This document shows positions 3,671 through 13,935 of a stretch of 19,816 bases of DNA, piece by piece. The translations under genes and the position numbers were made by a program. Below the pieces are notes generated by a model. It had not been told where the DNA came from. It searched no databases and saw only the letters and a program-made list of their open reading frames with translations. The DNA comes from Sulfurovum sp. (GTDB taxonomy: Bacteria > Campylobacterota > Campylobacteria > Campylobacterales > Sulfurovaceae). Location: contig JAUXGC010000013.1 in the NCBI GenBank assembly GCA_030622375.1, positions 1 to 19,816 on the forward strand. The letters are read 5' to 3'. Position 1 is the stretch's first letter. The number at the start of each line of letters is the position of its first letter.

Positions 3671-4875
3671 TATACTACCTCCACAGTAACTTCATCTATA
3701 CCGTTATATTTATATCCACCATGGTTCCACTTGACATCTTTCGCAAATGGCTGACTTTCACCTTTTTTATTGGTAGCTTTACACATGATAGTTAGACTAC
3801 CACTGCTTTTTGGCTTGAATGCATATGTAAAGGTTCTGTATGCATATTTGCCTTCGCGATCATCATCAAGAAGTGCATCTTCCCACATCTGACCACCATC
3901 TATGGAGATTTGTACTTTTTCTATGCCGTGACCACTGTCAAAAGCAACACCTCTTACCACCAAGTCAGAAGCATCTCTTACTTTAGTGCCTGTGACAGGG
4001 TAACCGATGATAGAGTTTACATTCATCTCTTCAATAGGTTTAGTTTTTTTAAATAGATTTTTCGGTGTTTCGCATTCACAGGAGTTGTCTGGTATGCGGT
4101 AGGCATGCTCCATAAAGTGAAGATCCTGCTTCTCTTTAGTCACAGTAATATTTGAAATCATTTTTATCCAGCTATCTGCATAGACACCAGGTATTATTAG
4201 TCTAAGTGGGTAGCCATTAAGGTATGGCAGGTCTTCCCCGTTCATCTTGTAAGCTAAAATAATATCATCATCCAAATGTTCAAGATTGAGTTCTCGTACA
4301 AAATTAGCCGTCTTATTATATACTGCTTTATCTTCTCCGTTAAATCCTATATATGTAGCCTCTTTTTTAAGTCCGGCCTTTGCTAAAACATCTTTTAATC
4401 TAACACCTCTCCATCTAGCGCAACCCATAGCTCCAATACCCCACTGTATGCCTCCAGCCATTGGCTTAAAGGCAGTACGACTGTTGCCGCCACACTGAAG
4501 AACAGCAGTCAGTTCTACTTGATTAAACTGTGTTTTAAGCTCTTGTAGTGAAACTTCTATCTCCTTTTCTACCAGCCCATTTACACTTATTGTAAATTTA
4601 TTTGGATTTATATATGTTGGAATGAGAGGCATATGCCAGCGTACAAAAAAGAGGTCATTTGGAGTTAGTGCAGAGGTAAATACTTCTCTGGGACTCTCTA
4701 ACAGGGGAGGTCTGTCTGAGTAAGTAATAAGAGGTCTTTTTTCAGGAAAAGCAATATCTGAGACTTTTCTGTTGTCTATGGGATGAGTGGTCTCTACAGC
4801 CTCTATAGTACTGCCACCTACAGCAGCTGACCCTGCAACTACAATAGCTTTTTTAAAAAAGTCTCTTCTTTGCAT
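3670..4875 (-). CDS. sorA: Sulfite dehydrogenase molybdopterin subunit (SorA/SoxC-like)
   Basis: This molybdoenzyme of the sulfite oxidase family oxidises sulfite to sulfate in the periplasm. The N-terminus is a Tat signal (MQRRDFFKKAIVVAGSAAVG), as expected for a cofactor loaded in the cytoplasm. The molybdopterin-binding domain spans about residues 70-250, with the Mo-ligating Cys128 in LQCGGNSRTAF and the GGIQWGIGAMGCARWRGVRLKDVL block after it. The Mo-co dimerisation domain covers about 265-400, with the VRGVAFDSGHGIEKVQISIDGG strand pattern. A length of 401 is normal. AAGGA 5-9 nt upstream of the ATG supports the start. sorB follows with overlapping start and stop. The absence of soxXYZAB nearby and the adjacent monohaem cytochrome favour SorA over SoxC. 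Role: energy gain or detoxification of sulfite. Confidence 0.9.
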   Translation of the reverse strand: MQRRDFFKKAIVVAGSAAVGGSTIEAVETTHPIDNRKVSDIAFPEKRPLITYSDRPPLLESPREVFTSALTPNDLFFVRWHMPLIPTYINPNKFTISVNGLVEKEIEVSLQELKTQFNQVELTAVLQCGGNSRTAFKPMAGGIQWGIGAMGCARWRGVRLKDVLAKAGLKKEATYIGFNGEDKAVYNKTANFVRELNLEHLDDDIILAYKMNGEDLPYLNGYPLRLIIPGVYADSWIKMISNITVTKEKQDLHFMEHAYRIPDNSCECETPKNLFKKTKPIEEMNVNSIIGYPVTGTKVRDASDLVVRGVAFDSGHGIEKVQISIDGGQMWEDALLDDDREGKYAYRTFTYAFKPKSSGSLTIMCKATNKKGESQPFAKDVKWNHGGYKYNGIDEVTVEVV

Positions 4876-11451: not shown

Positions 11452-13935
11452 ATGAGTGATTTATTTGAAGAGAAAAATGTTGAAGAGGTGCTTATAGAAG
11501 ACAGTATTAAAGCTAGTTATCTTGACTACTCTATGTCAGTTATCATTGGTAGAGCACTGCCTGATGCTCGTGATGGTTTGAAGCCCGTACATAGAAGAAT
11601 TCTCTATGCCATGAATGACCTTCACCTCTCACATAGAAGTCCATATAAAAAGTCTGCGCGTATTGTTGGAGATGTTATAGGTAAGTAGCACCCGCATGGT
11701 GACAACTCGGTCTATGATGCACTCGTTCGTATGGCACAAGACTTCTCTATGCAAGCACCTTTAGTTGATGGTCAAGGTAACTTTGGTTCGGTAGATGGTG
11801 ACAATGCGGCAGCCATGAGATATACCGAAGCTCGTATGGCGAAAATAGCAGAAGAACTTTTAAATGATCTAGATAAAGATACAGTAGATTATGTACCAAA
11901 CTATGATGACTCTATGAGTGAGCCAGATGTACTTCCTGCTCGTGTACCAAACTTGTTGCTAAACGGTTCAAGTGGTATCGCTGTTGGTATGGCAACCAAT
12001 ATCCCTCCTCATAGACTAGATGAGCTTATAGAAGCACTAGTGTTACGTATAGATAGTCCAGAGTCAACTATTGAAGATATGATGAAAATTGTACATGGTC
12101 CTGATTTTCCAACTGGTGGTATTATATTTGGTCGCAAAGGTATTACAGATGCCTATACAACTGGACGTGGACGCATAAAAGTACGTGCAAAAACACATAT
12201 AGAACAGAAAGGAAACAAAGAGGTTATTGTTATAGATGAGCTCCCTTTTCAGGTAAATAAATCAAGACTCATAGAGAACATCGCACAGCTTGTACGCGAT
12301 AAACATATAGAGGGTATCTCTGAACTGCGTGATGAGTCAGATAGAGAGGGTATTCGTGTAGTCTTTGAGCTTAAGCGTGATGCTATGAGTGAGATAGTGC
12401 TAAATAACCTTTTCAAAAGTACACAAATGCAAGTGACATTTGGTATTATAATGTTGGCTATTGCAAATAAAGAACCAAAAGTTTTTAAGCTTATGGAACT
12501 TTTTGACCTCTTCTTAAATCATAGAAAAACAGTAGTCATTAGAAGAACTATTTTTGACCTTGAAAAAGCAAGAGCAAGAGCTCACATATTAGAGGGACTT
12601 AAAATTGCTGTCGATAATATCGATGAAGTGATTAAGATTATCCGTGCTTCTGCAGATGATGCGGAAGCAAGAGAAAACCTCATAAGTAGATTTAAACTTT
12701 CAGAAATACAAGCAAAAGCCATCTTGGAAATGAGACTAAGAACACTTACTGGCCTTGCAATAGAAAAAATCGAAAATGAGTTAAATGGATTATTGAAACT
12801 CATTGCAGAGCTTGAATCTATCTTAAAAAGTGAAGATAAGATCAACGAAATAATTCGTGCAGAACTTGTAGAGATGGGCGAGAAATATACAACACCACGT
12901 CGTACAGAGATTGTAGATGATTATGATGATATTGATATTGAAGACCTTATTCCTAATGAGCCAATGGTTGTGACCATTACTCATAGAGGGTACATAAAAC
13001 GTGTACCAGTCAAACAGTACGAGAAACAACATCGTGGTGGTAAAGGAAAAATAGCAGTTACCACCTATGATGATGATTTCATAGAGAAATTCTTTACTTC
13101 AAATACGCACAATACACTAATGTTTGTAACAGATAGAGGACAACTCTATTGGCTTAAAGTATATCGTATTCCAGAGGGTTCTCGTACAGCCAAAGGTAAA
13201 GCGGTAGTAAATCTTATTAACCTTCAAAAAGATGAAAAGATTATGGCTATCATTCCTACTACTGATTTTGATGAAGATAAAGGTTTAGTGTTCTTTACAA
13301 AAAATGGTATAGTTAAAAGAACAAATCTCTCTGAGTATTCAAACATAAGAAGCAATGGTGTAAGAGCCATTAATCTTGATGAAGATGATGCTATAGTTGA
13401 TGCAAAGATAGTCAAACCAGATACACAATGGCTCTTTGTCGCTACTAAAAAAGGTTTATGTATTAGATTTAAAGTAGGTGATGCTAGAGAGATAGGACGA
13501 GTAGCTCGTGGCGTTACAGCGATTAAATTTAAGATAGATGGTGACTATGTATGTGGTGCAACTACCATAGAAAATGAAGAAGATGAACTTCTCATGATGA
13601 GTGAAAAAGGTCTTGGCAAACGTACAACAGCCAATGAATATCGTGAACAAAATCGTGCAGGTAAAGGAGTTATCTCTATGAAGCTTTCTCCTAAGACAGG
13701 CGATGTTGTAGGCGTAGTATTTGTAGAAGAAGATAAAGACTTGATGTGTTTAACAAGTATAGGTAAGATGATACGTGTAGATATGGAGACCATTCGTAAA
13801 GCAGGAAGAAATACTTCAGGCGTGAAGATAGTCAATGTAGAGAAAAAAGATATAGTTGTGAGTATTGCAAAGTGTCAAAAAGAGGAGAATTTAGATAAAG
13901 ACTCCGATACAAATAGTGAATTAGGATTAGAATAA
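11452..13935 (+). pseudogene. gyrA: DNA gyrase subunit A with an in-frame amber codon at position 79
   Basis: GyrA carries the DNA cleavage and wrapping functions of gyrase, which introduces negative supercoils. Reading 11452-13935 gives 827 codons, a normal length, but codon 79 (11686-11688) is TAG. The sequence around it reads GDVIGK, stop, [11 protein letters not shown]. coli and relatives have Tyr there (GKYHPHGD), so a single change from TAC or TAT explains it. Both sides stay in frame and well conserved: catalytic Tyr124 in AAMRYTE, and the GyrA box QHRGGKG at 526-532. Quinolone-resistance positions equivalent to E. coli Ser83/Asp87 are Asn85 and Asp89; Asn is the wild-type residue in Helicobacter. 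Restart at Met94 (11731) has no ribosome site and would lose the HPHGD region. Labelled broken as written; most likely the gene is functional and the base is an error. asd follows after 2 nt. Confidence 0.9.

Follow-up and report, generated by a model that had tools for sequence, protein, structure and literature searches.

According to the introduction of the eLife survey PMC8629427, all known bacterial code changes reassign UGA. Such reassignments (UGA to Gly or Trp) bring an in-frame stop codon to a conserved residue, amber suppression and pyrrolysine decoding act on the codon UAG, and the isolated in-frame stops of draft and metagenome-assembled genomes concern one base of one gene, the rest of which is conserved. 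The locus described here shares each of these traits. It is a TAG codon within gyrA, the gene for DNA gyrase subunit A, in a draft genome from the Campylobacterota.

The window, the whole stretch of 19,816 nucleotides that was analysed, is the complete contig C21 of this draft, which comprises 1,432,744 bases in 202 contigs, with a completeness of 76% and a contamination of 1.9%. Most of the closest protein matches are records titled Sulfurovum, and we infer the genus to be Sulfurovum. The following features of the window are referred to below:

11452-13935, forward strand: gyrA (DNA gyrase subunit A), 827 codons followed by TAA, with one internal TAG; the closest relatives are 92-94% identical at the protein level
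11686-11688, forward strand: the in-frame TAG, gyrA codon 79, Tyr in relatives
11689-11701, forward strand: a CACC/GGTG stem, conserved coding sequence for HPHGD
11731-13935, forward strand: the longest conventional frame left downstream of the TAG, 734 amino acids
17600-17674, forward strand: tRNA-Asn (GUU), the only tRNA in the window

The main observation of the preliminary description, a TAG at codon 79 of an otherwise open gyrA, was confirmed. The codon is in frame with both the ATG at 11452, which has AAGGAG just 5′ of it, and the terminal TAA ending at 13935, and 748 open codons come after it. The 827-codon frame and its alignment with relatives showed neither another stop nor a break of frame, and homology extended over the full length of GyrA (91% identity, residues 1-829 of an 830-residue relative). 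Stop codons are created by 294 of the 7434 single-base changes in this frame, about 4%, so one wrong base suffices to produce TAG 79.

Comparison with gyrA of close relatives, proposed in the preliminary description together with the expectation of Tyr at this codon, gave Tyr at residue 79 in every locus that covers it (106 of 106). For this count 109 relative loci (L002-L110) were examined, some of which are the same genome fetched twice, and three (L099, L101, L104) do not cover the Tyr position. A motif-based count, in which only the longest L059 frame was taken, gave 105 relatives with Tyr. In a non-redundant alignment Tyr was present in all 92 other sequences and the stop in the window alone. 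These 92 relatives were left after dropping four loci whose chosen frame lacked the motif, three frames of more than 1000 residues (L094, L100, L102) and near-identical rows. Among the best 120 of 8000 GyrA matches in a protein database none exceeded 93% identity; this database is clustered at 90%, and a copy from the same species may be hidden in a cluster.

Several relatives carried intein-like insertions in GyrA. The GyrA protein P0043 (1259 amino acids) has one (PF14528, PF14890, PF07591) between ARIVGD and CIGKYHPHGD, a few residues away from codon 79. The 1270-residue frame of L094 shows a break at query residues 72-77, and its insertion is probably at the same site. This site differs from the one at the catalytic Tyr. 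In four assemblies (L099, L100, L101, L102) an intein-like insertion ended just before TEARM, at the intein site that follows the catalytic Tyr of GyrA. An intein remnant at codon 79 was considered for the window and rejected, its gyrA being of normal length there.

Within the genus, a gyrA match was found in 70 of the 78 Sulfurovum genomes, four of these matches (G004, G005, G010, G436) falling short of codon 79, and an internal stop was present in the window's genome only. None of the 78 genomes had two full-length gyrA matches; G007 and G017 each had two partial pieces on separate contigs. In the wider sample of the order, 387 of 398 genomes had a gyrA match, and at least six places, the window included, carried a stop. 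One of them is a TAA in the gene body of G066, at query residue 102 (L238, G066:C73:31900-34900). The stops at four other listed places are probably natural ends, with none inside the aligned body. Among the relatives examined, L059, whose draft shows about 88% identity to the query used, carries a TGA in gyrA at query residue 377 (locus position 3738). Isolated gyrA stops are thus not confined to the present draft; those of the other drafts lie at unrelated codons, and together the cases include all three stop codons.

We suggest that TAG 79 reflects a fault of one base in the assembly, within a normal, functional gyrA, and we hold this best explanation with high confidence. It is favoured because Tyr is invariant, the rest of the gene is conserved, the stop is the sole internal one in the genus set and no recoding machinery was found. 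The source would be a miscall, or else a minority strain or a damaged read whose base entered the consensus of a fragmented draft. The fault would then belong to the consensus rather than to the cells. The gene itself would be normal, single-copy and functional, with codon 79 read as Tyr in the living population, as in every relative examined.

The quality of the assembly was assessed by searching for other interrupted genes. A set of 1447 reference proteins (1.6 Mb of the close relative G003) was compared with 318 kb of the draft, made up of 40 stretches and the window and amounting to 22% of the assembly. At 55% identity or more, 160 reference proteins matched; their 157 distinct places lie in 24 of the 41 stretches and cover 142 kb. 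With only half of the G003 reference, 99 proteins had matched and three had been flagged. Five of the 157 places were flagged as interrupted, gyrA being the fifth, and ten other genes of the window matched G003 proteins with none flagged. Three of the remaining flags were rejected: that of L139 is, by eye, a natural TAA two codons ahead of the relative's end, that of L169 is, also by eye, sequence 5′ of the gene's own Met, and that of L171 (6948-7843) comes from two adjacent genes, nadD-like and rsfS-like by eye, which are joined as one frame in G003. The last flag, L136 on contig C13 of the draft (G000:C13), has two TAA codons within bases 1-24 of the contig, where the relative's gene (sppA-like, named by eye) is open, and these stops were taken as a contig-edge fault.

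Base-level trouble is therefore seen at one contig edge of this assembly. An error-ridden assembly inside contigs is unsupported; among the 157 referenced places only gyrA is truly interrupted there, and it is the only one with an internal TAG. Stops were also scanned by codon usage with lowered cut-offs, and 23 of 141 were coding-like on both sides, the gyrA stop among them. The other 22 were judged by eye and without homology. In 20 of them a start codon follows the stop at a distance of at most 20 codons, and these mostly resemble neighbouring genes that share a frame; the two that lack a start resemble antisense shadows. Further genes interrupted by TAG had been named in the preliminary description as something to look for, and across the sampled 22% of the assembly (157 referenced places, and 141 stops scanned and judged by eye) gyrA was the only one seen. 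In favour of a base-level fault, isolated stops of a similar kind occur in the gyrA genes of L059 and G066, and this assembly has stops at the edge of C13. However, because gyrA is the only gene interrupted inside a contig of the sample, base errors must be rare there; a rare error fits this result, which is nevertheless the main point against calling the error certain.

Constraint on gyrA appeared ordinary. The median pN/pS between the window and ten near relatives was 0.089, and among those relatives it was 0.095 (range 0.052-0.146). Signs of a pseudogene, such as relaxed constraint or further lesions, were not seen in this comparison, in which synonymous divergence from each of the ten relatives is close to saturation (dS 1.05 or more), so that a very recent loss of gyrA would be invisible. 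Nucleotide identity to the ten relatives was 0.77-0.83 for codons 1-75 and 0.80-0.88 for codons 76-150, and a dip at codons 376-450 (0.73-0.81) was common to all of them. A chimeric join at TAG 79 was also considered, and no sign of it was found, there being no step in nucleotide identity at the stop in any of the ten relatives. Of 425 positions that are otherwise invariant among the 73 relatives within 80% identity, the window's GyrA differs at 2, a rate higher than that of 66 of these relatives and below the maximum of 1.6%. Codon 431 (12742-12744) encodes Thr in the window, with 91 Arg and one Lys among all 93 aligned sequences. Codon 554 (13111-13113) encodes Asn, the window being one of two sequences with this residue and the other 91 having Asp. 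These two departures may point to slightly relaxed constraint or to additional errors. As judged from these sequence comparisons, gyrA seems to have been under normal constraint until at least recently.

This pattern also bears on the alternative that the nonsense mutation is real. It might be carried by part of the population, by dying cells or within a mixture of strains, or by a cell whose second, intact gyrA lies in the missing part of the genome. An absence of long-term decay would fit a very recent event as well as a faulty base, and the lack of any other gene interrupted inside contigs at the 157 referenced places is in its favour. The preliminary description had pointed out that a second intact copy would make the interrupted gene a true pseudogene. 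None was found: the draft has one gyrA match, and about a quarter of the genome (~24%) is missing from the assembly, which leaves some room for such a copy. However, no genome of the genus set has two full-length matches, and GyrA is essential in bacteria. We consider a real nonsense mutation unlikely, though not so unlikely that it should be neglected.

A further alternative is a restart of translation at the ATG at 11731, with a product of 734 residues that would serve as GyrA in a split or shortened form. In its favour, the frame downstream of the stop is long, conserved and still includes RYTEAR, the segment with the catalytic Tyr. However, the part before the stop is conserved as well (77-83% nucleotide identity over codons 1-75 in the ten relatives), and the product would be without the first 93 residues. 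Since these residues are missing and no ribosome site is evident 5′ of 11731, the frame is not plausible as an independent GyrA, and the chance that a restart explains the locus appears negligible.

Suppression or programmed read-through would have UAG 79 decoded by a suppressor tRNA, by near-cognate decoding or through a local signal. An essential gene that is open and conserved on both sides of the stop speaks for such decoding. A reassigned code would make UAG rare or absent as a terminator, whereas TAG ends 62 of the 239 long frames in the sample. It also terminates arsC, a gene named sorB in the preliminary description and a thioredoxin-like gene in the window, as that description had stated. 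Nor was there a set of genes with in-frame UAG at one kind of residue, gyrA being alone at the 157 referenced places in 22% of the assembly. Loss or alteration of RF1, another mark of a reassigned UAG code, was not observed: an RF1-type factor is encoded at full length in locus L122 on contig C94, with the PxT motif that we take to mark this type. RF2 is cut by a contig end.

The sole tRNA of the window has the anticodon GUU, as already described, and a search for a tRNA with a CUA anticodon, suggested at the same time, found none among the 11 tRNAs of the 76%-complete draft. Since the draft is incomplete, the search was extended to G130, a member of the genus with 99% completeness, and none of the 40 tRNAs found there had CUA. 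The best match to PylS in the incomplete draft scored 20.1 bits against a curated cut-off of 178.15; among 14 control genomes this model gives matches in 13, one of which has a score above the cut-off. The stem just downstream of the stop had been doubted as a recoding signal from the outset, rightly so: its letters encode HPHGD and are identical in 56 of the 105 relatives with Tyr. Recoding is thus unsupported, and suppression or programmed read-through of UAG 79 is very improbable.

Of the two readings offered in the preliminary description, an erroneous or unrepresentative base is therefore the better supported, and read-through has received no further support, TAG being an ordinary stop beside an intact RF1, with no CUA tRNA and no other internal TAG found in the material searched. 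A narrower form of the latter, in which the TAG is real and full-length GyrA arises by efficient, site-specific read-through at the conserved Tyr without a dedicated suppressor tRNA, is even less credible. If read-through were true, the supply of gyrase, and hence supercoiling, would depend on the efficiency of termination. A TAG both real and read through would make this a natural case of an essential bacterial gene dependent on stop-codon decoding. As it stands, the single-base fault that we favour serves only as a warning that, where a draft shows an essential gene with an isolated stop, the reads should be consulted before recoding is claimed.

Set against the known systems, the locus differs from amber suppression and pyrrolysine decoding in that no CUA tRNA was found in the two genomes searched, the PylS match lies below its cut-off and the residue of the relatives is an ordinary Tyr. 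It differs from the UGA reassignments in that TAG commonly serves here as an ordinary stop and the sample has a single affected gene. It resembles the isolated in-frame stops of draft and metagenome-assembled genomes, and similar ones occur at other gyrA codons in L059 and G066. Compared with isolated stops of this kind, TAG 79 looks more striking, since its residue is invariant and lies near the beginning of a well-known essential gene.
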